DNA from: an uncultured Methanomicrobiales archaeon
Lineage (GTDB): Archaea > Halobacteriota > Methanomicrobia > Methanomicrobiales > Methanospirillaceae
Reading direction: 5' to 3'
Assembly: GCA_949320185.1 (NCBI GenBank)
Contig: CASGHK010000024.1
Coordinates: forward strand, 1-64,000
DNA: 64,000 nucleotides
Shown: piece by piece, positions 23,306 through 43,446 of the stretch
Numbering within the stretch: position 1 is the first letter of the stretch
How the letters are laid out: each line of letters begins with the position of its first letter
The notes under the pieces: generated by a model
The model's database searches: none
Told to the model about the DNA's origin: nothing
What the model saw: only the letters and a program-made list of their open reading frames with translations
Position numbers and translations under genes: made by a program

Positions 23306-24202
23306 TTACTCCTGAACACGATCCAAGATCTCGGTCCCGTCGCCCAGATTGTTAACTTCTCCGATCGAATCAGGATCAGGCAGATATTTATCTTCCGACG
23401 AGGCGGGATCTGCGGTATCCAGGCCTTTTTGAGGCCTATCGGGTCCCAGGAGACGGATCATGAGACGAACGGCCCGCTCCTTCTCTTCAATAGCAACGTG
23501 TTCCATCCTGCAGGGACGGCCGAGACCAGCAACAGTCATACATGCAAAGAGACTGCACGTCGGACACCCGATCATCGTGCAGATCTTGGGTGATGCCGAA
23601 CGGATGGTGGTGCATCCTTCTATGAGCCGGTATCCCGAGAATCTCACTATGACGAGGTCTGAGTCGAAGACGACCTCAACGGCATCCGCCAATTCAAGTG
23701 CCTCCTCGCCCACCTCTCGGATCGAGGTGCCGAGACCTTCATGGTCGGCCGGGACGACAAGACTATACTCACGGACCAGTCGGTCATAGAGAGCACGCCC
23801 GGTTGGAATTATGCAAACACCCCCTCCATTCTCCTCGGTAATATACGAATAATCATCGGACGGAAGAACCAGCGGGGAATCTTCCCCAACCGGTACCACC
23901 TGCATCGTCCCACCGCTCCCTGGAATGAAATGAGCGTTCCCCTGAACACCAAGGTCGGCACATAGACGTGCCAGGTCGATTACCGGTCCGGCTGCTGCGA
24001 GTCCGGCAACCCACACAAGGGTGGACTCGCCCCGTTGCTGCGACAGAAGAAGGACGCCTCCAATGAAACACCCGACTCCGACCAGGACCAGGGTTGCGCT
24101 AGTCACGTCACCTCTCCCAGTCAGGCCTCCCACGGCGAGGAGAAGCACAGCAGCACCTATCAAAGTCGCCCCAGAGATGAACCTTCCCTCAAGGTCTATC
24201 AC
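23306..24202 (-). CDS. Uncharacterised membrane protein with cysteine cluster (last gene of MoxR operon)
   Basis: Two N-terminal hydrophobic segments; soluble region ending in CTMIGCPTCSLFACMTVAGLGRPC; ATGA overlap with upstream gene. Confidence 0.75.
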   Translation of the reverse strand: MIDLEGRFISGATLIGAAVLLLAVGGLTGRGDVTSATLVLVGVGCFIGGVLLLSQQRGESTLVWVAGLAAAGPVIDLARLCADLGVQGNAHFIPGSGGTMQVVPVGEDSPLVLPSDDYSYITEENGGGVCIIPTGRALYDRLVREYSLVVPADHEGLGTSIREVGEEALELADAVEVVFDSDLVIVRFSGYRLIEGCTTIRSASPKICTMIGCPTCSLFACMTVAGLGRPCRMEHVAIEEKERAVRLMIRLLGPDRPQKGLDTADPASSEDKYLPDPDSIGEVNNLGDGTEILDRVQE

Positions 24203-24642
24203 GCGCTGTCACCCCCAGATAACCGGTGGTGGAGTCGGTTTTCGAACATTACCAGGCCGAAGATGACACTTGCCAGAACAACGATCAGGATGATCAGCGG
24301 GGTTATCATGTGTTTGAACAGGAGAACCCCGGCGGAAAAGACCACCATCATCACCGTTCCTAGACCAAACGCTCCACTATCCTCTCTGCAGACGATTCCA
24401 GCAATGACAGGTTGAAACGCGACACCAAGCGCGGGATAACTGGTCCCAAGGCCCATCGAGTAGGCTTCTCCAAGACATAGGAGAAGACATTGCCCGCCGT
24501 ATCCTGTCATGACGGCCCCTGCGACTCCGATACCGATGAGCAGTAGGATAATGAGCTCCACCGTGTCCCCTTCGGTGAGTAAGAGAGTTGCTCCACCTGC
24601 TGCGGCAACCGCACAGATAATGGCGTACCCGGACCTCTCCAT
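24199..24642 (-). CDS. Small multi-TM membrane protein (haloarchaeal DUF7519-like organisation)
   Basis: About four hydrophobic segments; coupled to both neighbours. Confidence 0.65.
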   Translation of the reverse strand: MERSGYAIICAVAAAGGATLLLTEGDTVELIILLLIGIGVAGAVMTGYGGQCLLLCLGEAYSMGLGTSYPALGVAFQPVIAGIVCREDSGAFGLGTVMMVVFSAGVLLFKHMITPLIILIVVLASVIFGLVMFENRLHHRLSGGDSA

Positions 24643-25883
24643 CAGATCAGCTCCACGACAGGATATGGACTCAACCAGGAGGCGAACCCACCCCGGGATC
24701 TGGGAATTCGAATCACAAGACGACTCTTTCGGCGACGCGCTGCCTCGGCGATGAGGTTCAGGTGGCTCACCTCGTCAAAGGAAGCGGTATAAACCACCAC
24801 GCCCCGATGCTCCGAACCGACCATGGCGAAGTCAACAAATAACTCAAATGGAGACCTTTTTTTTAAAGAGAGGTTAGTCCCCAGAGCAGATGCGTACCGT
24901 TTTGAATGGACCAGTTTGCCGTGCTCCGCCGTGTGGAGTATCGATCGGAGGACCACGGAGTCGCGGGTACGGTAGAGAGGCTGAAACGATTCGTGGACAT
25001 CAAGTCCGAGCAGGCGGAACAGGACCCGGGGATTTCTCTCATGACGGAGGAACTCTATCACATCCCCCCCGGAGATGACGAGAAGGTTGCACAGACCCCG
25101 CTCTCGGAGCATTCGTTCGATCTCTTCGCCTGCAGACGCAAGGACCTTGGCGCCGCCGGGAGTCCCGGGATCTGGCAGATCGACCACCAGAAGTGGCGAC
25201 CCGCTCACTGTCGCCGTGGGTTCCCTGACATACGTTTTGCCATGCTTCGCAGTGAGTTTCCAATCTATCAGGGACGGCTCGTCTCCCATTCGGAATGGAT
25301 GGAATCCCGATACTCCTTCTCCACGCGGGATCCCCAACCGGTCCAGCTCCTTCGTGCCCTGTAATCCTCCACGATTTGGTACCGACTCAGATTCTCCCCA
25401 GGGCCGTACGGGGATGTCGTCTCCGAGAAAACGCGAAGATGTGCAGATATACCTCGCCGAAAAGAACCGGTTTTTCAGCCCTATCTCCAGACCTCGAAAC
25501 CTCGCGATCCCCGGTGCGACGAACCGGACGGAGTAGGTGCCCCGTCCTTCATCCAGGACCACCTGGGTGGGGTTGTACGTACCTGATGCCGGAGGTATGT
25601 CGGTAATACTGACAAAGAGACCTTCCGTCCTGGGAGGAACCACCCTCACTGCCACTTCGACTGGAACCCCAACAACGATCGGATGCCTCTCTATGGTTCG
25701 TTCGACGGAGACGATATCGGTGTAACATGCAACGTGATAAAGAAACAGCGCGGCCTGGCCAATGAGAAGAGCTGTAAGACCGACAGCACCGACGGTGGCC
25801 GCTGGACTGTCAAGGTAGAGACCAATCAAGCCGAGAATGGAGGCGATAGTGGCACTCCCCACAGTCCACGGAGTCACCTGCAC
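24642..25883 (-). CDS. DUF58 domain-containing membrane protein (GTG start inferred)
   Basis: Two N-terminal TMs then FHPFRMGDEPSLIDWKLTAKHGKTYVREPT, the DUF58 signature; ORF extends to 25949 but GTG at 25883 sits just after the MoxR stop. Confidence 0.85.
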   Translation of the reverse strand: MQVTPWTVGSATIASILGLIGLYLDSPAATVGAVGLTALLIGQAALFLYHVACYTDIVSVERTIERHPIVVGVPVEVAVRVVPPRTEGLFVSITDIPPASGTYNPTQVVLDEGRGTYSVRFVAPGIARFRGLEIGLKNRFFSARYICTSSRFLGDDIPVRPWGESESVPNRGGLQGTKELDRLGIPRGEGVSGFHPFRMGDEPSLIDWKLTAKHGKTYVREPTATVSGSPLLVVDLPDPGTPGGAKVLASAGEEIERMLRERGLCNLLVISGGDVIEFLRHERNPRVLFRLLGLDVHESFQPLYRTRDSVVLRSILHTAEHGKLVHSKRYASALGTNLSLKKRSPFELFVDFAMVGSEHRGVVVYTASFDEVSHLNLIAEAARRRKSRLVIRIPRSRGGFASWLSPYPVVELI

Positions 25884-25887
25884 CAGA

Positions 25888-26877
25888 TTATGCCACCTCG
25901 ACAGATTCGAGAACCTCAGCGATGACACGATCGATCGAGGCCCTGTCAAATTCCGATTCTCGCTCCAGGATCAACCTGTGGCGAAGAACGGGGGCCGCCA
26001 TTCTCTTCACGTCGTCCGGGATCACGTACGTCCGACCCTCACACGCAGCAGCAGCCCGTGCACCCCTCAGAAAGGCGAGCGCGCCACGACTGCTGCAACC
26101 CAGACGGACCTCGTCGTGTTCCCTGCTGGCAACGACGATTTCGCTGATATATCTCAGAATCGTGTCATTGACGAGAACACTCATCACGTGATGACCTAGC
26201 GTGAGTACCTGATCGATCGAAAGGATCGGATTGATCCTCTTCCAGTATTCGTCCCATTCGAGCTCCCCGTCACGGTCACGCCGAAGGATCTCTATCTCGC
26301 TCTCTCTATCGAGATACTTGAGGACCACGCTGAAGGTGAACCGGTCGCGTTGAGCTTCGATCAGAGGGAATGTCCCTTCGAACTCCTGGGAGTTTTGAGT
26401 CGCGACCACGAAAAAGGGGTTCTGAAGAGGGTAATTGTAGCCGTCGATGGTAACTTGATGTTCTGCCATTGCCTCGATAAAAGCAGACTGCGTCTTGGGT
26501 GTCAGACGGTTGATCTCGTCGATCAACATAAAGTCGGTAAAAATTGGCCCTCTCTGGAGTTCGAATTGAGATGATTCGGCGTGATAGATGCGTACGCCTA
26601 GAATATCGGCAGGCTGGACGTCGACAACTCCCTGGACTCGATTGAACTGGAAGCCCATCAAACGTGCCACGATCTTGCTTATCGTAGTCTTGGCCGTACC
26701 GGGAGTTCCATCGATCAGGACATGACCCCCGATGAAAACGCCCATCGTCATCAGGTCGATCAGTTCCTGGTTTCCCACCACGTACTTACCCACCGCCTCG
26801 CGGATCATGCGGTGCGCTTCCCCAATCTTCTTGACTTCGGTTTGGAGGGCGTTCTCCTCCATCGTCACACCTGTCAT
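25888..26877 (-). CDS. MoxR family AAA+ ATPase
   Basis: GGHVLIDGTPGTAKTTISKIVARLMG Walker A, FMLIDEINRLTPKTQSAFIEAMAEHQVT Walker B/sensor, ATQNSQEFEGTFPLIEAQRDRF. Confidence 0.95.
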   Translation of the reverse strand: MTGVTMEENALQTEVKKIGEAHRMIREAVGKYVVGNQELIDLMTMGVFIGGHVLIDGTPGTAKTTISKIVARLMGFQFNRVQGVVDVQPADILGVRIYHAESSQFELQRGPIFTDFMLIDEINRLTPKTQSAFIEAMAEHQVTIDGYNYPLQNPFFVVATQNSQEFEGTFPLIEAQRDRFTFSVVLKYLDRESEIEILRRDRDGELEWDEYWKRINPILSIDQVLTLGHHVMSVLVNDTILRYISEIVVASREHDEVRLGCSSRGALAFLRGARAAAACEGRTYVIPDDVKRMAAPVLRHRLILERESEFDRASIDRVIAEVLESVEVA

Positions 26878-27758
26878 TTTCGCCTGTTGAACGACCATGC
26901 GAGTACACCAAGAATAATCGCCGTGACCACGACAACGAGTGATGATGTCTTCCTAATCCATAAAAAAGTACTGATCGGCCCTTCGGCGGTCGCGGTCCTG
27001 CTGAGCAGCTGGTCCACGAAGGTCGTCCTTTTGGCCAGTCGCTGGATAAAGAGATCGTTATCACAATGAGGAAGACCTTGCATGGCGTTGATGAAGAGAC
27101 TTGCATCCCCGATTACTATCACGTGACCCGTGCCCACATCCTCTTCTGCAGCGAGGGGATAGCGGGTCAGAGTCTCCGATCTATTAACCAATCGGTTTCC
27201 ATCTTTATCGATCCATGAAAGATATGTGGTATTCAAAATAGAGGTGCCTCCTGAAACAGCAACCGGGTGATTGAATACGATCTTAGAAAGGCCTGAGACC
27301 AGGTCTGTATCTGAAGCCGGATATCCAACGGGTGCATCGGCAACTTCAAACTCGCGGTCAAGGCTCAGAAGGTTGCCGCGTTCGAACCTGACAGATGAGC
27401 CGATTGCCAGGAGGATCTCATTTCCCGAGCCAAAATCATCGACAATTACCAGGGTATTACCGTCGGTGAGATAGTCCCGATACGCCTCTTTTTCCGGTTC
27501 GGTCGGTTTTCTACCAGGAGCGATAATGAGGAGCGTCGTGTCCCTTTTCCCTTCGACTTCGTCAAGATCTTCGATCATCCTTGCCCCACCGGTCTCAAGC
27601 CTGTCGAAAAACTGGGACGTTCCGTTCCATTGCTGATTGTACCTGCTAAATTCAGCATCGGTGGCGGAGAGATGGACGAAGAGTGTCACGGCCGCGATGA
27701 TCAGAAGCAGGCCAACTGCGGCATCGGCAACCCGGGAAGACGCTGAATCAGTTCTCAT
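26874..27758 (-). CDS. DUF4350 domain-containing membrane protein
   Basis: N- and C-terminal TM segments flanking a DGNTLVIVDDFGSGNEIL GATase-like core; ATGA overlap with moxR. Confidence 0.75.
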   Translation of the reverse strand: MRTDSASSRVADAAVGLLLIIAAVTLFVHLSATDAEFSRYNQQWNGTSQFFDRLETGGARMIEDLDEVEGKRDTTLLIIAPGRKPTEPEKEAYRDYLTDGNTLVIVDDFGSGNEILLAIGSSVRFERGNLLSLDREFEVADAPVGYPASDTDLVSGLSKIVFNHPVAVSGGTSILNTTYLSWIDKDGNRLVNRSETLTRYPLAAEEDVGTGHVIVIGDASLFINAMQGLPHCDNDLFIQRLAKRTTFVDQLLSRTATAEGPISTFLWIRKTSSLVVVVTAIILGVLAWSFNRRK

Positions 27759-28023
27759 TTCTACCCTGTATCTCCATCGCCGGATACCATACTACTTTCA
27801 TGATCGGCCAGTGCTGCTCCGGGGGAGAGAACCGGGGCTTGATGTATCCGTGGTCGTACTTCGATGCGGAGACTGCGTAATGGTTGGCCATCCACAAGAA
27901 AGGAACTGAGTCAGATGGAGGGCAGGATGAGGTGTCATACTTGTCAAAGCCGGCAAGGAGGATGCGATTATCCTCAATACCATCGAACACCCGGGTGATC
28001 CACCGGATCAAAGAACTTATCAC
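27748..28023 (-). CDS. Small protein of unknown function, 91 aa
   Basis: Overlaps both neighbouring genes (ATGA at 28020-28023, 11 nt at 27748-27758), consistent with translational coupling. Confidence 0.6.
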   Translation of the reverse strand: MISSLIRWITRVFDGIEDNRILLAGFDKYDTSSCPPSDSVPFLWMANHYAVSASKYDHGYIKPRFSPPEQHWPIMKVVWYPAMEIQGRNEN

Positions 28024-29828
28024 CCCTCATGCTCGGTTCCCTCCGTGAGCACAGTGATGAAAGACTCCCTTGCTACTTGAAGGTCATCCTCCGTCGGATT
28101 GTTCTCCGCATACTGGATCTTCTCATGGACTTCGACAAGCCGCTTGAGTTGGGGACCGTACGGCCATTTTGCGAACAGTTCAGAAAGGTCTCTGGGCGTT
28201 TCGGACCTGAGATGGAGGTCGGGGTGCCTTGCATCCATCTCGAAGACGAGTCGTCGATACGTCTCCTTAATCGTTGCACGTCCGTCGATGCGCCCATCGA
28301 CGGTCATGACAACCGTGTCCGCTATGGAATTCGCTTCCTCGAGAGACGGGAGAGGAGGAGGTTCGAAGGTGATCTCCGGCACATTAACCGTAATAACGGT
28401 GGCAACAGGCTCTTCTTCGGGCCGCTTCTTTCGCAGGAAAAAAATCGAGCCGATTATCGCACCTCCAAACCCAAACAGATAGACGATTGAAGTGAGCCAC
28501 TCCAGGTGCTGTGGGATGTCTACGGTGACGGAGGGGGATGTCGAGCCGGCGAGAGGAAGATCATCCGACTCGAACCACGCTGTCAGCGTCCTCGTTCCGG
28601 TGGGCAGAGGCCCAGTGGAGATCGAGAACTCCCCGTCATCCCCCGTGAAACCCGTCTCTAACGAGGTTCGACCGTCGACGTTGACATACACTCGTGCTCC
28701 CCGAACAGGGACACCAGTCTGAGTAACCAAGCGTCCGGATCCAATAGCGACCCACGTTCCGTTCAACGAGACAACCCTGGCATCAAGGGAGATGGAAGTA
28801 TTTGTCATGTCGACGGTGAAGTTCGTGACTTTTGACAACATCGTGTCGAGAGATGCGTACGCTGTATGGGTGCCGGCCCTCCCCTTCTCGATCCGGAATG
28901 GGATCGAGAAACGCCTATTTGCATCCGATAGAGCGCCCCCGATCAGGTGACCATCAACGAACACATCGACGCGAGTCCCTTCGGCTGCCAGGACAGTCCC
29001 ATTCAATCCCAGAGTGTCCCCGTATGTCCCATTTGATGGGAAGACACCCAGGATGAGCGCTGATGGAGGAAGGCAGAGGACAGATTGGGAAGCGCACCAT
29101 TCGTCTTGGATCTCCCGGATTTTTTCAGGGATCATCTTCTGACGCTGTTCCTGCTCCGTATCGATTTCATCCAGGATTTCCTTGAAATACCGTACCGATT
29201 GTTCAAACCGCTCTGTATCCAGTCCATAACTCCGGGAGATATTGATGATCTCGGAAGAGCGTGCGGCATACTCCTGGTAATTCCACCGGATGCTTGAGCG
29301 GAGCTCCTCTCCTCGAACTTCTACGGACTTTAGGCCGGATACATTCCCGTTTTTTAGGGATATCGCCTGCTCGGCCATCAGTTCGTCATAGGACCCTCGC
29401 TGTTCAACAAGCTCGCGAAGCGACCATAAGACAGCGTTGTTCTCGTCCTGAAACTTCCCGATTTGTGTATCCTTCAGGGCGAACTGAGCGACAAGATCGG
29501 AGAGTGACTGCCCGGACAGAGTAAACTGCTCAATACCGTCATCGGCTGATTCAAAGTCGCGATCCTTAATAGTCTGGACGATTGGGCCAGAGAGGTTCAG
29601 ACACATTGCCCATTCATTGAGAACGAGCGAGGCGTCGGTTCGGGTCAGGTTACCAGTCGCGAGTAGATCCTGATGGAATCCTGTCACCGATGAATCTCGA
29701 GCAGTGTACAGTACGGAGTCTTCCCCACTAGAAACAGAGACGATGAACGCGCCTGCGAGGACCCAGACCATCACCAGTAAGGCAATTCTGTCCACCAGGA
29801 CCTCACTTGATGTCGAACGAGATGTCAT
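28020..29828 (-). CDS. Membrane protein with extracytoplasmic coiled-coil/Ig-like repeats and C-terminal DUF4129-like domain
   Basis: N-terminal TM, TFTGDDGEFSISTGPLPTG Ig-like carboxypeptidase-regulatory-type repeat, TM, then ATIKETYRRLVFEMDARHPDLHLRSETPRDL (DUF4129-like). Confidence 0.8.
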   Translation of the reverse strand: MTSRSTSSEVLVDRIALLVMVWVLAGAFIVSVSSGEDSVLYTARDSSVTGFHQDLLATGNLTRTDASLVLNEWAMCLNLSGPIVQTIKDRDFESADDGIEQFTLSGQSLSDLVAQFALKDTQIGKFQDENNAVLWSLRELVEQRGSYDELMAEQAISLKNGNVSGLKSVEVRGEELRSSIRWNYQEYAARSSEIINISRSYGLDTERFEQSVRYFKEILDEIDTEQEQRQKMIPEKIREIQDEWCASQSVLCLPPSALILGVFPSNGTYGDTLGLNGTVLAAEGTRVDVFVDGHLIGGALSDANRRFSIPFRIEKGRAGTHTAYASLDTMLSKVTNFTVDMTNTSISLDARVVSLNGTWVAIGSGRLVTQTGVPVRGARVYVNVDGRTSLETGFTGDDGEFSISTGPLPTGTRTLTAWFESDDLPLAGSTSPSVTVDIPQHLEWLTSIVYLFGFGGAIIGSIFFLRKKRPEEEPVATVITVNVPEITFEPPPLPSLEEANSIADTVVMTVDGRIDGRATIKETYRRLVFEMDARHPDLHLRSETPRDLSELFAKWPYGPQLKRLVEVHEKIQYAENNPTEDDLQVARESFITVLTEGTEHEG

Positions 29829-30088
29829 TGAGAGAGCAACCCCATGATACGGTTTGCCACGATGTAGCCGAAGATAAGGATTCCTCCGGCAGCCAGGTAC
29901 TTCATTCGGCGAAGGTGGTCGGGCTGCAGCGATGAGGTGTCGATCAGGATGACAATGACCAGGAGACCGATCAAAGCCATCACGAAGAAGACCTCGAGGT
30001 CGAGCGTCCCCACAATCAGCATGAGCCCCACTATGACCATCATCCAGGTGATGAAGACCGCTGACGAGAGACCTCGCTTTCTGTTCAT
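29825..30088 (-). CDS. Small membrane protein, first gene of MoxR operon
   Basis: 87 aa, about three hydrophobic segments; ATGA overlap with the next gene. Confidence 0.65.
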   Translation of the reverse strand: MNRKRGLSSAVFITWMMVIVGLMLIVGTLDLEVFFVMALIGLLVIVILIDTSSLQPDHLRRMKYLAAGGILIFGYIVANRIMGLLSQ

Positions 30089-30398: not shown

Positions 30399-31757
30399 TC
30401 ACTGGTCGCACATTCTTCGTTGAACACCGATTATTGCCCGGACGTTCAGGATATAACAGAGGACGTACATGAACGCCATCGTGAAAGAATAGACATAGAT
30501 GGTCGCGACAGCAGTCAATCCGAGAGTGTAGGAGATGTAAAACCCCCCGACGACGAGCAGGGTGCGACTCGCATCCCAGGCCAGTTCCCAGTTGTTGTAA
30601 CCGTATACTTCGAGCCGATTGGTCGAGGAGACCACGAACTGCGCGAGAACCATGACGCTCAGAGGAATGATGAAGATGCCGGCGTCTTTCCACGCACTCC
30701 CGAAGACGAGTGGGAAGATGACAGGGAACGCGATCGCGGCAACGGTGATCACAGGGGCACCGAATACGAAGAGCCTGCGGGTAGTCTTCCGGTACAGCCC
30801 GAGGATCTCCTGTGGTTTAGTTCGTAGCAGTTCGGAACTTTCCCCATAGAATACCTGTGCAATGGAGCTTGAGATTAGAGAGATGGGCATCACCAGCATT
30901 GAATAACTCAGGGAAAAATAACCCACAATCTGAAAACCGAACAGGGTCGATATCAGGAGCGTCGGGGCCTGTAATGATAACTCATTTATCAGACCGGATG
31001 GGACGGAGAAGATAGGAAACCGTTTATATTTCAGGGCGGTGTCGATCAGTCTCTGTCGTTGCAGTGTTCGGGCCCTTGATACGAGTCTCGGGGTGATCAA
31101 ACCACCCAGGACACCGATTCCGATTGCCAGCGCACAGAATTCCCCGAAGATCAACCCGAATGAACCGAGTCCGAGCAGCCCCAGGGCGATCTTACTGACC
31201 GATCCGGATACACTCTGGAAGACTCCGGCTCGCGCGATCTGTCCGTACCCTCTTTCACGAAGCACCCAGTGAGTTACAATCCCAAAGGAGGACAAGAATA
31301 GAAAATATACACCAAGCAACCAGAAGTGCGGAGTTAGAAAACCCAGGTTCAGGCTCGCGGAGATCGAATCACCGAACACAACCAGTACGAACAGGAGCAC
31401 GAGCGTCATCACCCCTGTGATCGTAACAGAAAGGATCATGAGGTGCTCCGCTTCTTCGTCTGTCTCCGCCATCGGCACCGGGGTGTCGTACCGCAACGTA
31501 CTCAGGACAATCAGGATCGACAGAACCGAGGAGAAAATCGCGAGAGTCCCGTATTCCGCCGGCGGATAGATGCGCGTGAGAATCGGAACAAAGATCACTT
31601 TGAGTACCTGGGAGAGGGCTGTGCCGCTGCCTATGATCAGGACTCCTCGAAGAATAGGATCAGACGAAAGAAACGCGACGATCCGTTCTTTCATGACCGA
31701 GTATCTCGAACCAGGTTGGATCATTTTACGTATCATGAATGAAGGATCCTTCGCCAC
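30399..31757 (-). CDS. Oligosaccharide flippase (Wzx-like)
   Basis: VPILTRIYPPAEYGTLAIFSSV motif; multi-TM; paralogous to 921-2450. Confidence 0.9.
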   Translation of the reverse strand: MAKDPSFMIRKMIQPGSRYSVMKERIVAFLSSDPILRGVLIIGSGTALSQVLKVIFVPILTRIYPPAEYGTLAIFSSVLSILIVLSTLRYDTPVPMAETDEEAEHLMILSVTITGVMTLVLLFVLVVFGDSISASLNLGFLTPHFWLLGVYFLFLSSFGIVTHWVLRERGYGQIARAGVFQSVSGSVSKIALGLLGLGSFGLIFGEFCALAIGIGVLGGLITPRLVSRARTLQRQRLIDTALKYKRFPIFSVPSGLINELSLQAPTLLISTLFGFQIVGYFSLSYSMLVMPISLISSSIAQVFYGESSELLRTKPQEILGLYRKTTRRLFVFGAPVITVAAIAFPVIFPLVFGSAWKDAGIFIIPLSVMVLAQFVVSSTNRLEVYGYNNWELAWDASRTLLVVGGFYISYTLGLTAVATIYVYSFTMAFMYVLCYILNVRAIIGVQRRMCDQ

Positions 31758-32487
31758 CGTTCACACTCCAAAGGTTAACTGTCGGTTTAATACATATTTC
31801 GAATACATTGTCTCGATTAAAAACGTCGTCCCTCGACTCGGCTTTCAGGGTTGTATCCAGGTCGCCAACCCATCAGGATCCTTCAGAGAGGTCTGATCTG
31901 CAGTATTGCATGGACGACGCTCAGCCCAGTTCAGTCCTTACTTTTTCGCCCACACTCCCATTCTCTTCCATATGCTTCATTTTCGGTAAAGAATCATCGG
32001 GTTATCACCGCTGCAGGTGGAAAAATAAACCGTGACCGGTTCCGACAGAAGTCGTCTTGATGGAGTCTCGCTCCGACGATGTGTCAGGTTTCAATTCATG
32101 GATTTCAGTCCTACACAGGGCTCTCACTGAAGACCGGGGATTTCCATCATCTACTGGTTTTTTTCATGACTTCTTGGCGGCAGGGACTGAGCGGAGATGA
32201 CCACACAAGAGGGGTTTTGCCCTTATCCCCACGGACAGAATGAATGGGTCACAACACTACGTTTGTTCAGACCCATCAGAACCCGGACTCTTTCGCAGAG
32301 AGTTATGACAGGACTACTTTCCTCCGATCAATTCAGAGGGTGCTCAGGCACGGGTCGAAGGATTGAATAACTCTGGGGGAGAAGGGAGGTATCTGGGACT
32401 CCGTTCGATACCAGGTCAATTCGTTCCTCGATATGGATAGCGCATGAATCCGTTAATCCTGACACCCGTCCTGAATCCGGAGGCCCG

Positions 32488-34455
32488 ATGAACCCGGTGC
32501 CATTCCTTCGTATTGCACTATCGAAGATCAGAGCTCTGCTGATTGATATATTTGCCACGAAATATCATCTCCTGTTATTCACTGGCACTGTTATTGGCAT
32601 CGTTGTTTCAGTTCTTATGAAACGGCCCGACTACACCGTCAGGGCGCTGATCTTTATTATCCCCGCAGCAGTCGTCTCCGTCCTTATATACTGGATCTAC
32701 AGAGGCAGGATACAGATCGAGGAGGCGCTTTTCACCAGAGAGGTGAAGAAAGAGACGCATTTGATAATTTTTTCCCTGATATTTAGTGTATCACTAATTT
32801 CTCTTCTTTTCGCTCCATACCGGCCCTGGTATTACCTTCTTCTCCTCGTTGTGCTCTATTGTCTCATCTTTCTTCAGATCGCCGGATCCAATCCAAACCC
32901 ATTCATCATCCTCTCTGAACTCAGCTGCGTCATGGGTAATCTGATCTTTGGATTGCATTTTAAATATCCTCTCTTTTTTGGATATACGGATATCATTCCA
33001 CACCTGTATCTCTCGAAGATCACATATCTATCGTCGCATATAATCCCCATCGATCTCGACAACACCTATGCAAACTTTCCGCTCTTTCATATAAATGTTG
33101 CAATCGGAAAGAGCATTCTTGGAGTTGACATCAGGATCGCATTCATCCTTCTCACATCGCTTGCATTTATCAGCCTGATCTGGTTAGTGTACCTTCTCGC
33201 CAATGAGATTCACCCGAATGTCCAGCTCTCATTGCTCATCAGTCTTGTCTTTGCATGCACACCCGCAGTGATAACGTATTCAACCTACGTGGTGACCCGT
33301 GTGATGGCCTTTATCGGGTTCGCATATCTCCTGTTCCTGGCGCAGAAGCGGATGAGAACCTCGATGAAAGCTCAATTCTCCGTGCTGATCATCATCATCT
33401 CGGTGTACATAATTCTCGTCCACCAGGTCTCCATTTTACAGATCATGCCATTGCTTCTCCTTTTGTTCGCCCTGGAACTCTTTGTCAATGACCTGGTCTC
33501 AATGCGACCTGACGTCCTGGCACTCATTACGGTTACGTTCTCCGCGTACTGGGTTTTTGTCTCCACCGTCATGTCAGAGATCATACTGACGAAGACCGAG
33601 TCCATCGGCACCGCCGAGATCACCCAGGTGCGGTCTTCGGTACAGGCAGGAAATGAATATATATTCCTATGGAATAATATCGACACGACGGTCACCGTCC
33701 TTTTAGTCCTCTTAGGTATCGGGTATCTTCTCTGGACGTACAGGGCGAAGTATGCCTCGGTGCTTGGGTTCTTTGCTCTTATCATGACCCCTCTCCGGTT
33801 CCCCAGTCCGTTGACCGCGTCGAGCCTCGCGATGATCACGTTTCGAACGGACCGGTTCGAACTCCTGCTAGCCCCATTCTATGCGATCGTCATTGGGGCA
33901 GGGTTCGTCTCGCTGTTTCATACCCTGAACAGAAACGCGGTGATGAGAAAGGTTGCACCTATCTGCTGCCTGCTCGTCTTCTCTTTCCTCTGTGCATCCG
34001 CACTCACCGGGGGCAATTCCTCGGACTGCGTGGACATCATTTCAAATGAGAGCAGGGTTTACTTCACGGATTCTGAGATGAAAGCCTTCGATTTTATCAC
34101 GAATAAGGTGACCTTCGGTTCCACGATCACGTCGGACCTGTACGCAGGTCGGATGTTCGAGAATCATCTGTTCAGTGGAACGCAAGCGTTGCAGCTCCCA
34201 TATTTTAATAAAAAAGATTCCCTATCGTCGCCGGAAAATTACACGTTCTCCGAGGGACTGCTCATCATGAGGAATCAGGAGTTCTTGAAGAACGGATTGC
34301 GATTCGATTCAGCGAGTGTGGATTACGGTGACACCATCTATCCCACTGAAAAAAATATCCAGAATTTTCGGCATATGGAAGAGGAATCGAACAAGGTTTA
34401 CGATAACAGGGACGTCTACATCCTCACGAATGAAAATTCTGTAATTCGCCGTTAA
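32488..34455 (+). CDS. Large multi-TM protein, GT-C-like/DUF2206-like membrane protein
   Basis: Many TM segments, then a C-terminal extracytoplasmic domain; sits in the glycan island. Confidence 0.65.
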   Translation: MNPVPFLRIALSKIRALLIDIFATKYHLLLFTGTVIGIVVSVLMKRPDYTVRALIFIIPAAVVSVLIYWIYRGRIQIEEALFTREVKKETHLIIFSLIFSVSLISLLFAPYRPWYYLLLLVVLYCLIFLQIAGSNPNPFIILSELSCVMGNLIFGLHFKYPLFFGYTDIIPHLYLSKITYLSSHIIPIDLDNTYANFPLFHINVAIGKSILGVDIRIAFILLTSLAFISLIWLVYLLANEIHPNVQLSLLISLVFACTPAVITYSTYVVTRVMAFIGFAYLLFLAQKRMRTSMKAQFSVLIIIISVYIILVHQVSILQIMPLLLLLFALELFVNDLVSMRPDVLALITVTFSAYWVFVSTVMSEIILTKTESIGTAEITQVRSSVQAGNEYIFLWNNIDTTVTVLLVLLGIGYLLWTYRAKYASVLGFFALIMTPLRFPSPLTASSLAMITFRTDRFELLLAPFYAIVIGAGFVSLFHTLNRNAVMRKVAPICCLLVFSFLCASALTGGNSSDCVDIISNESRVYFTDSEMKAFDFITNKVTFGSTITSDLYAGRMFENHLFSGTQALQLPYFNKKDSLSSPENYTFSEGLLIMRNQEFLKNGLRFDSASVDYGDTIYPTEKNIQNFRHMEEESNKVYDNRDVYILTNENSVIRR

Positions 34456-34780
34456 TTGAGGATAGAACACCATATATCAACAGATCCTTTGGGATATTCA
34501 AAAAGCGATCCGTGGGGGGAGGCACCAACATCTCATCGTTTCCTGGTTCAACGAGGAAACCGACAACAGCAGGTCCGCACCCCATAACCGGATCTTCTCC
34601 TTGAACTTGATGGCATAAATCACCCAACGACTGAATGAACCGCCAAGCCTCATGTAATCCGTAGCACTTGCAGGTACCTGGACTGGCAGTAATACCCGTT
34701 CCCGCTAATAACGACCAATTTCAATATTTCAAGGAGTCGATCAGGAGCTCTTTAATTATGTTCGTGTCGAGTCTCTTTGA

Positions 34781-35950
34781 ATGCTCAAGTACCTGATGGT
34801 AACCAGCAGTGGGCTCGAGAGTGGCGTTATAAAAAAAGCCTTTACTCAGGTGTCTGGGCTCAATTCTTTGGGGCTGCAATCGGAACTGGTCATCATCAGT
34901 GACCAAAACTTCCCGGATTTATCGGGGTCCGAATCATTCGTACGGATCGTTTCTTATGAAACACTGGACAGGCGCGACTTTTTCGGGAGACTGCGTCGTA
35001 TCGCCCGCCTCAGGAAAGAGATTCGGAGGATCATCCACACCCTGGGACCGTCCGATCTTTTATATCACCGTGGGCTCGAGCTGCATCTGTCGTACTATCC
35101 CTTCGCGTTCTTCAAACACCGAAATCGGTGCAAGATAATCTCGGAGCACCAGAGTATCGAGGTCCGACAGCGGTTGCTGTATGGCTCATACCTCTCTGCG
35201 ATTATTGCCCTGGTTGCAGGAGGAATCATTACGGGTCAGACAGATGGGATTATTGGCGTCACCGATGAGATCACATCGTACTGGAGCCGGAGGCTCTTCT
35301 GTCGCAAGATCCCCCATATTACCATACCCAATGGCTTCGATGTACGGTCTGTCCGCATTCGAACCCCCCCCAGCGGGGATTCGACAGATCTTCACCTCCT
35401 CTTCGTCGGGAATGTCAGCAGGTGGCACGGGCTCGATCGCCTCATCCGTGGGATCGCACGTTACCGGGGATCGATTCGCGTTCACCTTCATATCGTTGGC
35501 GATGGTGACGAACTTCAGAACCTTCAGGAATTAGCCAGGGTGATCGCCCCCGGGTCCCCTGTATATTTCCATGGAAATTACATCGGATCTCAGCTTGATC
35601 CGGTCTTTGATGAGTGCGATGTCGCGATCGGGAGTCTCGGAGTTCACCGGCAGGGACTCGCGCAAGCATCATCACTGAAGGTCAGGGAGTACTGCTCGCG
35701 AGGCATACCGTTCGTCCTCTCAAATCAGGACCCGGACTTTCCGGATTCCTTCGAATACTGTCTCCATCTTGAACCGACTGACGAACCGGTTGACGTGGTG
35801 GAGATTGTCACCTTCGCCTCCCGAATGCGGAACAGACCTTTGCATCCCGAGAAAATGCGATCCTTTGCCGAAAAGAACCTTGATTGGAGCGTGAAGACAG
35901 TAAAAACATTCACCTTCCTTGAAACGATGCATCCCCAGACCAGCCGATAG
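34781..35950 (+). CDS. Glycosyltransferase family 4 (GT-B)
   Basis: PHITIPNGFDVRSVR, LLFVGNVSRWHGLDRLIRGIARY, LHIVGDGDELQNLQEL motifs. Confidence 0.9.
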   Translation: MLKYLMVTSSGLESGVIKKAFTQVSGLNSLGLQSELVIISDQNFPDLSGSESFVRIVSYETLDRRDFFGRLRRIARLRKEIRRIIHTLGPSDLLYHRGLELHLSYYPFAFFKHRNRCKIISEHQSIEVRQRLLYGSYLSAIIALVAGGIITGQTDGIIGVTDEITSYWSRRLFCRKIPHITIPNGFDVRSVRIRTPPSGDSTDLHLLFVGNVSRWHGLDRLIRGIARYRGSIRVHLHIVGDGDELQNLQELARVIAPGSPVYFHGNYIGSQLDPVFDECDVAIGSLGVHRQGLAQASSLKVREYCSRGIPFVLSNQDPDFPDSFEYCLHLEPTDEPVDVVEIVTFASRMRNRPLHPEKMRSFAEKNLDWSVKTVKTFTFLETMHPQTSR

Positions 35951-36208
35951 GTGATCTCGTCGATACAGGATGGTCGGTAAAAAAACAGTGAACAATATGC
36001 AGCAACCTGATCCGAACGTGGAATCAATACAAGCCCGAAAGAACCCTGAGATTCGATTACCAGGACGGCGTTCCTCTGTGCGCCCCTCAAGAACCGGGAC
36101 CCATCTCTGGTTCGTCCGGTTTGGATGTACCGAGTGATGACGGTTATAAGCTCATGCAGGGACCGAAGTGAGTCTTCCCATTGACGATGATAAGTGGGAA
36201 CGGTCTCA

Positions 36209-37312
36209 TTATGAGACCTCCGATGGAGGTGCGTACCACTTGAGCATCTCGTTCTGGAATACCGATTCGTCCAGGCTTTCTGGATAGTGCTCGACGAACC
36301 ATATAAGAAAGCCGGTTACATTGATCTTATCACTCAACACCCGCTGGCGTTTGCGGCGCCATGCTTCCTTGCTGGTCTGATCGTTTAACAAACCAACTGC
36401 CATATCAAGGGCCATCTTACTGTCCGCGCTATTGTATAGCAGACCGTATTTCTCCTCGAGTTCGATAAAATTCCCCATATCCTCCTGTCCAACAAAGGAG
36501 TTGCACCGAACAGCGGGAGTCCCCAACAGCGCTGCCTCAGTGGACATCGTCTGCGAGTCACCAACGAAGAGTCGCGCGTAATAGAGCATGTGATGAATCT
36601 TTTCGGGGGAGATGGTGATCCGGTACGGTTCCAGTTCGGTGGGAAGAGGAGACTCGGAAGAGATGTACACGCGTGCATGCTGTTCGAGCCTGGAAACGAG
36701 CCGAACCTTCTCCTCGAGTGAGAAACCGCTCTTAGCCACATCGTGCATAGCCTGCCACGCGACGAATCGGCACAGCACGAAGGATGAGTCAACAGACTCT
36801 CCTAAATCATCGAGTACCGATGGATCGGGGGAAAAATATTCTGGATGAAGGTACGCAAGTTCGATATAGCCCTCGTATTTTTTGTGTTTATGTCCGAAGT
36901 CCTTGCGAAAACTGGTCGGAGTGAGAATGGCGTCTGCAAATGGGACGAACAGCATGTGTTCATAAGGAGAAGGTTCGCTATCGTCCAGGGCAAGATACGG
37001 TCTTCGCATGAGGGCGGAGACATGTGCCGCCCTTATCGAACCGAATCCCAGGAATATATCGGGCTTGAATTCACGTACCGCGAGGTACATCCTGAGATCG
37101 AGAATCGGTATTTTGATCATTTTCTCCGCGATAGAACGCCCGTAGTTTCCGATCTTCGTATACGAAAAACCATACAGGTCGAGCAACCGGTATGAGATGT
37201 CCTTCTCGCTCGCTGTGATCAACACTTCGTGTCCACGACTCTCCATCTCCCAGACAAAATGTTTGAAATAATGGACGTGAGCCGGATGATTGATGTCAAC
37301 AACAATCCTCAT
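36209..37312 (-). CDS. DUF354 domain-containing protein (UDP-GlcNAc 2-epimerase/GT-B-like)
   Basis: MRIVVDINHPAHVHYFKHFVWEMESRGHEVLITA and LFVGDSQTMSTEAALLGTPAVR. Confidence 0.9.
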   Translation of the reverse strand: MRIVVDINHPAHVHYFKHFVWEMESRGHEVLITASEKDISYRLLDLYGFSYTKIGNYGRSIAEKMIKIPILDLRMYLAVREFKPDIFLGFGSIRAAHVSALMRRPYLALDDSEPSPYEHMLFVPFADAILTPTSFRKDFGHKHKKYEGYIELAYLHPEYFSPDPSVLDDLGESVDSSFVLCRFVAWQAMHDVAKSGFSLEEKVRLVSRLEQHARVYISSESPLPTELEPYRITISPEKIHHMLYYARLFVGDSQTMSTEAALLGTPAVRCNSFVGQEDMGNFIELEEKYGLLYNSADSKMALDMAVGLLNDQTSKEAWRRKRQRVLSDKINVTGFLIWFVEHYPESLDESVFQNEMLKWYAPPSEVS

Positions 37313-38112
37313 AGCGAACCGGGTATCTCCATGAATAATGCTTCGAGTTCCGAACGGGTGGGATAACTGATTAATACTGCACGCTTTCTTCCGTGGTAGA
37401 CAAAGAGACTGCCGGCAGCAAGTGCCGAGGCATTTCCATCGTAATACCCGGTCCTGAAGTCCAGAAGGCGACCGGCGCCGCCGCAGGCGATGACCGGGAT
37501 ATCGACGAGATCGGCGATCATCCTGGTCAGTGGAACGTCATAACCGGTCATCAATCCGTCGTTATCGATGGAGGTGATCATGATCTCACCTGCGCCGAGC
37601 GCTTCCATCTCCTGAGCCAGCTGTGCGGGATTACGCCCCGTCGGCTGGCATCCACAGTGACTGAAGACCTCGTATCGCCCATCAGGCCTTCGTCGAGCAT
37701 CGATGGAAACGATGATGCTCTGGCTTCCGAATGTCTCACTTGCAGACCGTACGAGTTCGGGGTTAAGAACCGCGTCCGTGTTTATGGCAACCTTTTCGAC
37801 CCCTGCGTTGAAGAGCCGGTGAATATCATCGATTGATCGGATTCCTCCACCGTACGTCAATGGCATCAGACACTCTCGAGATATTCGGGCCACCATGTCG
37901 AACGGAATCGGGTTCTTTTTCAACCGACCGAATAAACCTCGCTTCCTGGAAGCCATGATATCGAGAAAAACGAGCTCGTCTGCCTCTTTGTCGTTGAATA
38001 TCCTTACGGCATTAATTGGATCTCCGATATATCTCGGGCTCTCGAACTCAGTCGTCTTCACCAGGCCGTCGTCCCTCAGAAGGAGACATGGGATTACACG
38101 GGGTCGAAACAT
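37309..38112 (-). CDS. HisF-like ammonia-synthase subunit of a sugar amidotransferase (WbuZ/HisF2)
   Basis: HisF fold, but the N-terminal catalytic CLD motif reads PCLLLRDDGLVKTTEF; adjacent to HisH-like and WbpG-like genes. Confidence 0.9.
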   Translation of the reverse strand: MFRPRVIPCLLLRDDGLVKTTEFESPRYIGDPINAVRIFNDKEADELVFLDIMASRKRGLFGRLKKNPIPFDMVARISRECLMPLTYGGGIRSIDDIHRLFNAGVEKVAINTDAVLNPELVRSASETFGSQSIIVSIDARRRPDGRYEVFSHCGCQPTGRNPAQLAQEMEALGAGEIMITSIDNDGLMTGYDVPLTRMIADLVDIPVIACGGAGRLLDFRTGYYDGNASALAAGSLFVYHGRKRAVLISYPTRSELEALFMEIPGSL

Positions 38113-38113
38113 A

Positions 38114-38767
38114 CTACTGAAGAGATACGAAATTTTTCATGATACGGATTCCACTCGAATGGCTCCGTTCCGGGTGACACTGGATTCCGATGATGTTGTC
38201 CTGCCGGACGACTGAGGGGAACGCGTAACCATAGGTCGTAGTTCCGATCACGCTCGTCTCCTCGACTCCCGTTAGATGATACGAATGAACGAAGTAAAAC
38301 CTGTCATCGAGAGAGATGCCGGTAAGAACTGGGTCATCTGAAGGTTTTACAGCATTCCAGCCCATATGGGGGATCTTTAACCGGTTCCCGTTCGGGCCAA
38401 ATCGGAACCGTACCGTTTCGGCATCGATCCAACCAAGCCCATTCACACCACCTTCCTCGCTCGTCCTGGAGAAGAGCTGCATTCCGAGGCAGATCCCGAG
38501 GATTGGTTTTTTCTTCTCCACGACCTCTTCTTCAAGTACCTGGATCAGGCCGGAAGCCTTCAGGTTTTCAATACCCTTTTTGAATGATCCTACCCCAGGA
38601 AGGATCAGCTTCTGTGCATTCTGGATCTCCTCAGGGTTCGAGGAGATCGTGGCGGTCACCCCAATCCGTCGAAAGGTATTTAGGATACTCCCAAGGTTTC
38701 CCATTCCGTAATCGATGACAGTAATCATCCAGTCATCCCCAGGGGTAGAACCCGTCCTTCCAATCAC
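38114..38767 (-). CDS. HisH-like glutaminase subunit of a sugar amidotransferase (HisH2)
   Basis: LPGVGSFKKGIENL, GICLGMQLF nucleophile, QCHPERS triad. Confidence 0.92.
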   Translation of the reverse strand: MIGRTGSTPGDDWMITVIDYGMGNLGSILNTFRRIGVTATISSNPEEIQNAQKLILPGVGSFKKGIENLKASGLIQVLEEEVVEKKKPILGICLGMQLFSRTSEEGGVNGLGWIDAETVRFRFGPNGNRLKIPHMGWNAVKPSDDPVLTGISLDDRFYFVHSYHLTGVEETSVIGTTTYGYAFPSVVRQDNIIGIQCHPERSHSSGIRIMKNFVSLQ

Positions 38768-39918
38768 TCACCCAGATATTTCTCATAGAAGACATGCGGT
38801 AGAAGGTTCAGGTTGCAGGCGATCTTTATCGGCAACCTGCACGCCCTGATTGCAGGATAATAACTCGGATAGTCCATATAACTTTTACGTGGGGCGTCCA
38901 TGATCTGCTGGAACTCCTCGGCAGAAAGGCCGAGTTTGGTGATCGTGTAATCGACGATCTCCGGATCAGAGTGATACGGCTTCTTAAGTTCCTCGAGGGC
39001 TTCTTCGCGACTCATCTGACCCGACCGAATCAGAGCAGAATACTCAAGTTTCCGCTTGTCGACGTTGAATTTCTTCGGCAGGTAGTACGATTGGAAGAAC
39101 TCGGTGTAGACCGATTCGTGGTGATGGCCACCGTAATACTTCCATCCGAGTTCAGTCTCGAGGACTCGATTGACCGTTGCGTGTTCGTACGGGACGAACT
39201 CTGGAACGTTTATGACCTGGATCCGCTTGATGAGCGTATTGAATACAAGTTCAGAAAGGCTCATGATCGGGAAACTGGTGATCTTCCGGGTCCCGAACCT
39301 CTCCTGAATTGCTCGGATGTAACGCCCGTCCATGTACGTCCACCCAATAGGAGCCACACCCTCCGTCCTGAATGAGTGGCCATTCAGGATATATCGGACG
39401 CCGTGCTCCTTCGCTGCTCGGTACAGAACCGAGAGGATTACATAGTCTGTGGGGACTTCGGCGTCGGAGACTGAAGCTCGGAGAAAAGACTTCTGCAGGT
39501 CTTTGAACTCCTCCCAGTCAGCGACATGGGTCTGGAGGTCAACATCAAGTGTATCAGTCGCTCTCTTGATATTGCTCACTGCAGTATCTGAATTCCAACC
39601 ATTATCAAAATGGACGGCAAGAGGTCGGAGGCCCATCGTCACGGCATAATACAGCGTATAGGTGCTGTCACGGCCACCACTCACCCCGACAATGCAATCG
39701 TACTCCCGTTTTCGTCCATCATGTTTGATCCGATCGATGATGGACTGGAATCGTCTCCTCCCGGATTCATCAAGGGGATGTTTCTTTTCTAACTCGTCAT
39801 GAATTCTGCAGAAGGTACAGATCCTGTTATCATCGAACTGGATTCCGGGTACTGTTGTATCCATGATACAGCGCGTACAGACCCTAACTGGAGGGGGATC
39901 GTGCATCGGATGCCACAT
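38764..39918 (-). CDS. N-acetyl sugar amidotransferase (WbpG/PseA-like)
   Basis: CTRCIMDTTVPGIQFD...CTFC zinc site and PP-loop CIVGVSGGRDSTYTLY. Confidence 0.94.
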   Translation of the reverse strand: MWHPMHDPPPVRVCTRCIMDTTVPGIQFDDNRICTFCRIHDELEKKHPLDESGRRRFQSIIDRIKHDGRKREYDCIVGVSGGRDSTYTLYYAVTMGLRPLAVHFDNGWNSDTAVSNIKRATDTLDVDLQTHVADWEEFKDLQKSFLRASVSDAEVPTDYVILSVLYRAAKEHGVRYILNGHSFRTEGVAPIGWTYMDGRYIRAIQERFGTRKITSFPIMSLSELVFNTLIKRIQVINVPEFVPYEHATVNRVLETELGWKYYGGHHHESVYTEFFQSYYLPKKFNVDKRKLEYSALIRSGQMSREEALEELKKPYHSDPEIVDYTITKLGLSAEEFQQIMDAPRKSYMDYPSYYPAIRACRLPIKIACNLNLLPHVFYEKYLGE

Positions 39919-40228
39919 CCAGTACCGGCTATTGCTTCGGGATTTAATAAAGAGACTGCTTCGTTTCTTCTCAAGGAACAGTTCGATCGCATTGGGAATA
40001 CCCGGACAGTTTCATTCATATCCGATTACCACGATTCCCTGCGTATTACGTATTCATCCTGTGGAAGGAGAGCACATGAGCGCGCGTGACCCGCACCCAT
40101 TCCAGTCGCCTCCGGGAATATTGCGATCCTCGTAGAACACCCTGCGGAGTCATCACGGGTGGTTGGGAAAAAGTACTGAAGGATCTCATTTTTTGCTGAC
40201 ATCCGATGAGACCGGGTGCAGGCAGACG

Positions 40229-41132
40229 CTGACTGCCGATGATCGCGAGACGATCGATGCATCTCATCATTGCGGCGACACAGTCTCGTCCATACATACA
40301 CGCTACCATATCAGTCGCGAGCGGGTCTTCCCGGTCCTTCGCTTCGCCCTGGTTCATGAAGCCCCTCAGGTCCTTCATTCAGCGTACCGGGCGAGGACCG
40401 TGCCCGCTGCTGTGGTATGTGCTTTTCCCGGCGCAAGTCTTATGCCGGATCTCCCAGCTCGGACCATGACCACTCTTTCGTCATTCCACCACCGGAAATG
40501 GCCGAATGATTCCGAAGACGAAGCGCATACGAAGGTTTATCGGATTCTGCGGAAAATTTACCCGACAGAACGTGCAAACAACAATTACCACGACCGATAT
40601 CGATCCGTTTCGAGCGGACTCATGTGATGAGTCGATGATAGGGTGACTGGAAACAGGTGACCATCGCCGGCCGAACGCAGTGGAAGATCGCGTTCCTCGA
40701 AGATGCTGACCGGTTCATCACCTGCTGCGGGCACAGTCTATCGCCGACGACGGAGGCGACCCTCATGGGTCTCGATACCGGGTTTCCGCGTCATGCTGCC
40801 GACCGAGATACTGATGGATCAAGGCTCGCAGTTCATCGCTACCCAGACGACCAAAACAGCGCATCACGCCTTTGGACGGTACCTGGAACACTATGCTATT
40901 CGACACATCGTCCCCAAGGAACTATCCGCAGACAGATGGTAAGACCCAAAGTTGTTTCAGGGAGATCGATCGGTTGATTGCAGCCGGATTCACCAGGGAT
41001 GAACTTGTCGACTGGCAGAAAAAAATCAAACCTCGTGCCAATGTAGACCACAGGATGCCCGAAACGGCCTTTGTTTATAATCTACCAACCGAACGGTTCC
41101 TCGGGTACGCACGGAAGTGGTTGTGTGAGTGA
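40229..41132 (+). pseudogene. Degenerate transposase with integrase-core (rve) domain
   Basis: Homologous pieces in several frames: LTADDRETIDASHHCGDTVSSIHTRYHISRERVF (HTH), QWKIAFLEDADRFITCCG, REILMDQGSQFIAT-like EILMDQGSQFIATQT, DWQKKIKPRANVDHRMPETAFVYNLPTERF; interrupted by stops and frameshifts. Confidence 0.85.
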
Positions 41133-41313
41133 AATGAATTCGGGGCTGAATAGAGGGGATCACCGGTTTAAGGTATTTGTCGATGGGCGAGGCACCATGA
41201 GAACAGAAAACACGGCTCACCGGAATACAGGACGTCCGAGATGCTATGTCGGACCCATGAAACGATATAATGCTTAGAGAGAGGATAGAAATATTGACAC
41301 CAAAGCAGGAGAT

Positions 41314-41329
41314 CAGCGCACGTGCGCTG
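41314..41329. promoter_or_regulatory. 16-bp perfect palindrome CAGCGCACGTGCGCTG upstream of FemAB-like gene
   Basis: Read directly; ends 20 nt before the ATG at 41350. Confidence 0.4.
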
Positions 41330-41349
41330 CGTCATACAAGGGCGTCTTG

Positions 41350-42333
41350 ATGAAAGAGATAATCGTCAGGAATCTTGAACCTGCAGATTACCAGGAATGG
41401 GACAGTTTCGTCGATCGTATTCCGCAGGGAACTGTCTTTCATAAAAGTACGTGGGTGTCCGCAATCTCTCAGGCGTTGAATCAACGGTTTTCAATCTTCG
41501 GCTGTTTCGAGAACGAACGATTGGTCGGGGGCTACGTTCTCTACCACACCAGATACATGGGTTTCTTCAGATCAACGAAGTCGACTGCCATGATGAGTAG
41601 TTTTGGTGGATTGATCGTGGATGGCGGAAGCAACATGAATTGCTTCAAACGAGAGAAGCAACACTGTGCGATCATCGGTGCCGTCCTCAGAGACCTTCGG
41701 TCCAGGAGGTTTCACTACGTCCTGTTCGAGCTCTCTCCATCATATCTGGACATCCGGCCGTTCATCTGGAACGGATGGCGGACCAACACCCGTTATTCAT
41801 ACGTTATATCGCCCGGGAAGGCGTTCTTCTCCAAGAGCGCACGGCGGCACATCCGACGCGCGGTGGAAGGAGACGTTTTCATCGAACAGACAACAGATAG
41901 CGAGTCGTATTACGAGCTCTTTTGTAACACCTATGCCCGTCAGGGGATATCGCCACCCCTGACACACGGTCAATTCGTACGACTCTATCATACGATTGAG
42001 GGAGCCGGACTCAGTCGCATGTGGGCGGCACGGACATCAGAGGGAGAATGGGCGGCAGCGGAGATACACCTGAAGGATGAAAAACGGACCTATGCCTGGT
42101 CCGCAGCTTCTGACATCGAGTTACGAAAGAGCGGGGCGAATTACCTGCTGCAGGAGACGATCTTTTCACAGGAAGCATCGGACGGGTTCGAGGAGAGCTA
42201 TCTCTTTACCGCAAACACTCCCAACCTGGCGAACTTTATGAAACAGTTCGGACCGGAACTCGCTCTATACCATCAGGTGTCGTATTCTCAAATACGCATG
42301 AACCGTTTCAATCATCCACAGCGTTCTGGATAG
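41350..42333 (+). CDS. FemAB/GNAT-like acyl- or aminoacyl-transferase
   Basis: VGGYVLYHTRYMGF, FSKSARRHIRRAVEG, GEWAAAEIHLKDEKRTYAWSAASDIELRKSGANYLLQE: FemAB/peptidoglycan-interpeptide-type double GNAT layout. Confidence 0.8.
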   Translation: MKEIIVRNLEPADYQEWDSFVDRIPQGTVFHKSTWVSAISQALNQRFSIFGCFENERLVGGYVLYHTRYMGFFRSTKSTAMMSSFGGLIVDGGSNMNCFKREKQHCAIIGAVLRDLRSRRFHYVLFELSPSYLDIRPFIWNGWRTNTRYSYVISPGKAFFSKSARRHIRRAVEGDVFIEQTTDSESYYELFCNTYARQGISPPLTHGQFVRLYHTIEGAGLSRMWAARTSEGEWAAAEIHLKDEKRTYAWSAASDIELRKSGANYLLQETIFSQEASDGFEESYLFTANTPNLANFMKQFGPELALYHQVSYSQIRMNRFNHPQRSG

Positions 42334-42459
42334 AGAAGCCATCCGAAATGAACCCTGAACCGAGAAGAACAGACAGTGATTGACCTTTTAACCTCGAGAT
42401 AGAGTCCGGGCAAGTCACTCGCCTTGATATCTGATCAGATCTATTCATTCGGGTTGTTC

Positions 42460-43446
42460 TTACGATATCAGGTTTCGGACACACTGGTTGAACCAGCACC
42501 GTTTTGACAGGAGCTCCAAATGAAAATATGGGACGAGATCGGGATTGAACTTGGCAGTGAACTCGGCAAGCTCCGGGACGTTTGCAGTCATCATAAAGAA
42601 CTCTGGGATTGAACGTGACCGGAGCGATTCGATGATCGTTGCGAGTAAGAGGAACACAGCGCCATTCAATTTTCTCTCAGGACGACTCGCAGCACTCCAG
42701 CGGTATGCCCGTTTTGCGTCACAGATGATCAGATCGGCTGCGAGGACCACCCCGTTGGAATCCCGGGCAACCCAGAGTTCTCCATCTCCTGTCCGCACCA
42801 GATCCTCGAATAGCGGCCTGAGCCGGTCAATATCGAAGAAAGGTATCAGTCCCTTCGATGCATACATCGCCTTCAAGAGTGCGGAGAAGAGGTCGATGTC
42901 CCGGGATCGCTCGACCTGGATGCCAAGGCGGGTGGCCAGCGAGATATGTTTTCGGGCCGTCCTAGAAAAATTTGGTTCCGAGGTCTGCAGTCGATACGTG
43001 TATTGAACACGACATTTCCAACCATTCCAGGTGAAGATACGAATATCATTGAGACCCGGAGGGGCCTGGATGACAATTTGATCGAACGCATCACGGTTGA
43101 ACTCTTCGCAGAGTGCTGTACCGAGAGCATGCAGCAGCCTTTCCCTCAGGAGCGAGGACGGTACACCGGACTGATCGACAACAAGGCCGCCATGCGGGCT
43201 GCATTCGTTAACGGAGGATGCCAACACCATGCCGGGCCACAGGCATTCAAGATACAACGAGCAGCCGCCGACCAGGGAGGTATCGTTAAAATATCCGTAA
43301 ATTCTTGGTTTTACGCCCATAATTCGACTGGTTTTCTCTAGCCAGTCCGATCGGTGAAAGTACGTCGCGTGTGCGACAGTGTCCACCAGATCGTCCCAGA
43401 GATGATACTCGTCCTGATTCAGAACCCTCATATCAGAAGAATGCAT
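42460..43446 (-). CDS. FemAB/GNAT-like acyl- or aminoacyl-transferase, paralog of the previous gene
   Basis: Parallel motifs: LVGGCSLY, FSRTARKHISLATRLG, AADLIICDAKRAYRWSAASRPERKLNGAVFLL, MMTANVPELAEFTAKFNPDLVPYF. Confidence 0.8.
   Translation of the reverse strand: MHSSDMRVLNQDEYHLWDDLVDTVAHATYFHRSDWLEKTSRIMGVKPRIYGYFNDTSLVGGCSLYLECLWPGMVLASSVNECSPHGGLVVDQSGVPSSLLRERLLHALGTALCEEFNRDAFDQIVIQAPPGLNDIRIFTWNGWKCRVQYTYRLQTSEPNFSRTARKHISLATRLGIQVERSRDIDLFSALLKAMYASKGLIPFFDIDRLRPLFEDLVRTGDGELWVARDSNGVVLAADLIICDAKRAYRWSAASRPERKLNGAVFLLLATIIESLRSRSIPEFFMMTANVPELAEFTAKFNPDLVPYFHLELLSKRCWFNQCVRNLIS

Follow-up and report, generated by a model that had tools for sequence, protein, structure and literature searches.

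A conserved seven-gene MoxR/DUF58/DUF4350/DUF4129 membrane module in Methanomicrobiales and related archaea with a separable A-H gene pair

What kind of machinery is encoded by a tightly packed cluster of membrane protein genes around a MoxR AAA+ ATPase? This question is raised by a minus-strand locus in a 64,000-nt stretch of DNA from an uncultured Methanomicrobiales archaeon (GenBank assembly GCA_949320185.1, contig CASGHK010000024.1), which is referred to here as the window. MoxR/DUF58/DUF4350/DUF4129 clusters are widespread, and an initial annotation of the window considered the function of such modules in archaea as largely undefined. The literature on DUF4350 and DUF4129 likewise yielded no work on what such a module does, but a role had already been predicted: Makarova, Galperin and Koonin proposed in 2015 that the DUF4350/MoxR/vWA neighbourhood encodes a secretion or membrane-remodelling complex (PMC5898192). 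For archaeal MoxR/DUF58/DUF4350/DUF4129 clusters, the literature provided only this type of model, which is based on gene order.

Eight ORFs are located on the minus strand between positions 23306 and 30088 in the order A-B-C-D-E-F-G-H, and re-reading their positions from the sequence placed them as in the initial annotation:

A, 29825..30088, minus strand: 87-amino-acid protein with three apparent transmembrane (TM) helices; a conserved module member whose paralogues are fusions with H
B, 28020..29828, minus strand: protein with an N-terminal TM helix or signal, a helical region, two Ig-like stretches, a TM helix and a C-terminal DUF4129
C, 27748..28023, minus strand: 91-amino-acid, window-specific ORF; probably not a module gene
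D, 26874..27758, minus strand: DUF4350 protein (arCOG01314-type), membrane-anchored and extracytoplasmic
E, 25888..26877, minus strand: MoxR AAA+ ATPase (AAA_3 and AAA_lid_2)
F, 24642..25883, minus strand: DUF58 protein with two TM helices, an Ig-like sandwich and a vWA-like domain without MIDAS
G, 24199..24642, minus strand: 147-amino-acid multi-TM protein without a Pfam match
H, 23306..24202, minus strand: protein with two TM helices, a V4R/TRAPP/H-NOX-like soluble domain as judged from its model, and a Cys cluster

The junctions between these ORFs are very tight. Four of them had been described as ATGA overlaps, which is correct for A/B (29825-29828) and, provided that MoxR starts at 26877, for D/E (26874-26877), whereas B/C (28020-28023) and G/H (24199-24202) both read GTGA. 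The 11-nt overlap of C and D (27748-27758) and the GTG start of F at 25883, right after the moxR stop that ends at 25888, were found as annotated, and a further junction missing from the original list is formed by F and G, which share the single base 24642 (TGATG).

E matches AAA_3 (PF07726) with 170 bits, above the Pfam cut-off, and contains a Walker A motif (GTPGTAKT) and a Walker B motif (LIDEINR); an alignment of 40 MoxR sequences showed that GxPGTAKT and DEiNR are maintained throughout. D matches DUF4350 (PF14258) with 86 bits against a cut-off of 30, and the DUF58 match of F (25.7 bits) also exceeds the Pfam cut-off. The two matches in B are slightly below their Pfam cut-offs, i.e., DUF4129 with 23.3 versus 24.8, which is backed by relatives, and the Ig-like match with 28.9 versus 35.5, which is kept in relatives. 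For A, G and H, no credible match was present in Pfam or NCBIfam.

Comparison with related genomes defined the cluster as a unit. Relatives of the DUF4350 protein D were detected in 110 of the 199 genomes of the order, and 40 Methanomicrobiales loci were fetched for profile searches with each gene. D was recovered in all 40 of them; for E, F and H the number was 39 each, for G 37, for B 34 and for A 32. The order A-B-(B2)-D-E-F-G-H is repeated in most of these loci, a recurrence far above chance, and where genes are missing, the locus either runs into the end of a contig or is one of five from a single genus. In these five loci (L065-L067, L076 and L101), the module copy begins at D and is not preceded by A and B. 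In the set of 199 genomes, 108 of the 110 with D also gave a strong F hit, and the reverse comparison likewise gave 108 of 110; H accompanies D in 105 of the 110, the five exceptions being fragmented assemblies of 190-400 contigs, and H without D mostly belongs to a free A-H pair type. Several genomes, e.g., G003, G009 and G069, contain two module copies, and in one locus (L078, genome G171) the DUF4350 gene is tandemly duplicated behind the DUF4129 gene.

The cluster, a predicted operon, is real, but it comprises seven conserved genes (A, B and D-H) rather than the eight initially annotated. ORF C has no homologue in any syntenic locus among the 40; its matches in 108 family genomes are at noise level (E 0.008 at best), and its coding signal is weaker than that of any other ORF in the set (0.10 versus 0.18-0.49). 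Because neither the syntenic loci nor the family genomes contain a relative, C should be dropped from the module; it is probably a non-conserved ORF within a 261-nt gap, although it may be an orphan gene. Short ORFs of other genomes with matches at E 0.008-0.09 were considered as evidence for a conserved small protein, but they are scattered in unrelated places. Three loci from close relatives (L062:8352-9314, L064:3261-4742 and L004:3135-4937) and L095 contain a second Ig/DUF4129 gene, B2, which separates B from D and is absent from the window. The idea that C is a remnant of B2 found no support, as its score of 17.3 bits equals the mean of shuffled sequences (17.3).

Beyond the order, the H profile matched in 89 of 394 genomes of the phylum. 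In twelve loci outside Methanomicrobiales (L144-L155), H accompanies MoxR, DUF58, DUF4350, DUF4129 and usually A; gene order and strand are often rearranged, but the gene set survives. These include two loci that we take to be Methanocella-like (L144, L145), six loci (L149-L153, L155) termed haloarchaea-like because their proteins are acid-rich and their GC content is mostly high, and loci from another three lineages (L146; L147 and L148; L154). The initial annotation had envisaged one membrane complex with MoxR as a remodelling chaperone. The conserved order, the co-occurrence of D and F and the persistence of the gene set after reshuffling support well a co-functional module with MoxR as its cytosolic motor, while a physical complex with remodelling activity is what we infer beyond this.

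How could a cytosolic ATPase be connected to these membrane proteins? In the structural model of F, the two TM helices are accompanied by an Ig-like sandwich and by an α/β vWA-like part, the fold of which was not confirmed by fold search because the sandwich dominates the PDB matches of F. The loop between the TM helices is acidic and the 20 residues following TM2 contain on average 3.5 Lys/Arg. The C-terminal domains of F are therefore predicted to be cytosolic, i.e., on the same side as MoxR. The MIDAS motif DxSxS is missing in all F sequences analyzed (35/35), which have D-x-P at this site. Its loss is not a peculiarity of this family and not striking by itself, because several bacterial DUF58 proteins encoded next to MoxR are also degenerate there (DAGRM, DSGRR).

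The arrangement of a MoxR-type ATPase (E) with an adjoining vWA-type partner (F) resembles NorQ/NorD (PMC9976466). By analogy, E and F could be chaperones dedicated to the maturation of a single membrane enzyme or cofactor site, for which B, D, G and H would serve as adaptors, and the Cys cluster of H could then mark cofactor handling. However, NorD is described as a cytosolic, soluble protein with a MIDAS that is essential for target activation (PMC9976466), while F is a membrane protein lacking this motif, and the module shows no constant linkage to any enzyme gene. We therefore consider a dedicated maturation system improbable.

The predicted topology of F also bears on the secretion model of 2015, in which DUF4350 and Ig-like proteins would constitute a MoxR-energised export conduit. 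This model was published for the same neighbourhood, points to a similarity between DUF4350 and GldG (PMC5898192), and agrees with the mostly membrane or extracytoplasmic location of the parts. On the other hand, none of the seven proteins was recognised as a channel-like or transporter subunit, and the vWA protein, likely secreted according to the 2015 account, corresponds here to a predicted cytosolic domain without MIDAS. A dedicated protein secretion system thus appears unlikely.

Genes A and H form a separable pair. In addition to their place in the module, they are present without MoxR in six glycan loci (L138-L143) and fused in L136 and L137, where the A part is recognised with i-E values of 3e-15 and 6e-13. 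Both fusions adjoin HTH/PAS regulators with purine-biosynthesis genes close by (L136:9840-12225 on contig C29 of the window's own genome; L137:8642-11037). Within the Cys cluster of H, C197, C208 and C213 are invariant and C216 is near-invariant; these cysteines are retained in L136-L148 and L154, whereas the six haloarchaea-like loci lack the cluster, perhaps as a result of a single loss. The model of H (pLDDT 85) suggests a soluble domain of the V4R/TRAPP/H-NOX type, the nearest PDB folds being YslB, BcsD, H-NOX, Bet3/Trs31 and the PoxR sensor domain, with E values of 0.016-0.26, an rmsd of about 5 Å, a target TM-score of about 0.44 and unrelated hits among the matches. At the sequence level, H does not qualify as a V4R member: HHalign against archaeal V4R proteins was not significant (E 0.46) and V4R was not among the families listed for 36 H members. 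H also differs from this superfamily in its Cys pattern and in being mounted on two TM helices, for which charge analysis gave an ambiguous topology.

A sensor function of A-H would be compatible with these features. The sensor-like modelled fold of H and the regulators beside the A-H fusion could even indicate a stress or regulatory membrane module, where A-H would detect a signal and MoxR would tune membrane proteins in general, with no role in surface assembly. The sizeable extracytoplasmic portions, both Ig-like and DUF4350, and the linkage to DUF1616 point instead to the cell surface, and we regard a purely regulatory module as improbable.

This linkage is seen in the surroundings of the module. 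DUF1616 genes are present in 29 of 36 core loci versus 0 of 20 control regions, and for one relative's protein the match to PF07760 reached E 1.6e-109; in the window, no DUF1616 gene adjoins the operon, but two matches exist elsewhere in the genome. Recognisable glycan genes lie close to 18 of the 36 core loci and to all six A-H pair loci, versus none of the 20 control regions of relatives, and in a matched set of 20 genomes in 7 versus 0 cases (p 0.004), an enrichment that may be overstated because most glycan queries were taken from the window or from glycan-bearing loci. In the window, flippases, glycosyltransferases and sugar-modifying genes flank the operon on both sides. These surface-glycan type genes (921-3120 and 30399-47374) include two Wzx-type flippases, a hexapeptide transferase, GT4, GT2, DUF354, Gfo/Idh, FemAB/GNAT-like proteins, and HisF/HisH-like and amidotransferase-like genes.

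Considering these data, we give an even chance to the proposal that the seven genes encode a machine for envelope assembly that is driven by ATP and controlled by a sensor-like A-H unit. A MoxR hexamer would dock on the cytosolic vWA-like domain of F and use ATP to remodel a transmembrane assembly of B and D, with the presumably cytosolic DUF4129 tail of B coupling the motor to this assembly. The extracytoplasmic Ig-like domains of B and the GldG/flavodoxin-like domain of D could serve to handle or assemble a component of the cell surface, most probably an S-layer or glycoprotein, for which neighbouring DUF1616 proteins may serve as partners or clients. A and H would form a membrane-embedded unit that gates the machine, and the V4R/TRAPP-like domain of H with its Cys cluster might bind a metal or sense a redox or ligand state. 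Beyond the gene set and topology, these steps are what we infer. That A-H represents a new kind of membrane sensor, whose V4R/TRAPP-like domain holds a metal or Fe-S cluster in anaerobic archaea and gates an ATP-driven machine for surface assembly, and which is re-used alone in glycan and regulatory loci, is a rather unlikely extension. The seven-gene set, the predicted location of the vWA-like domain on the same side as MoxR, and the separable A-H pair lead to specific, testable predictions, some of which can be addressed in haloarchaea, for which genetics is available.

Among bacterial MoxR loci, the E-F pair is frequent and DUF4350 is also present in three cases (L005-L007). Two of these additionally contain DUF4129 in the same gene order as the archaeal core, while in L007, which is cut off, DUF4129 was not seen. 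Different from the archaeal module, none of the bacterial clusters examined contains homologues of A, G or H. The arCOG01314 system, as described in the 2015 survey (PMC5898192), shares with the present module DUF4350, a MoxR-family ATPase, Ig-like surface proteins and small membrane proteins within a single neighbourhood. It also includes a vWA-type protein, to which F with its predicted cytosolic vWA-like domain may correspond, and DUF1616 (pfam07760) proteins, which accompany the module in most relatives' loci but are not adjacent to it in the window. Table 2 of that survey names no Cys-cluster or V4R-like protein, whereas H is a constant member here, and A-H is separable, unlike in the survey's description of the system; H may be one of its unnamed families with 2-3 TM helices. 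No earlier description was found for the A-H submodule, nor a study of the Cys-cluster protein H. We regard the module as the form that the predicted arCOG01314/MoxR system takes in Halobacteriota. This system counts as known because its core was predicted by Makarova et al. (PMC5898192), and to this published picture our analysis adds mainly the A-H submodule, together with the predicted cytosolic location of an F protein devoid of MIDAS and a corrected gene list.
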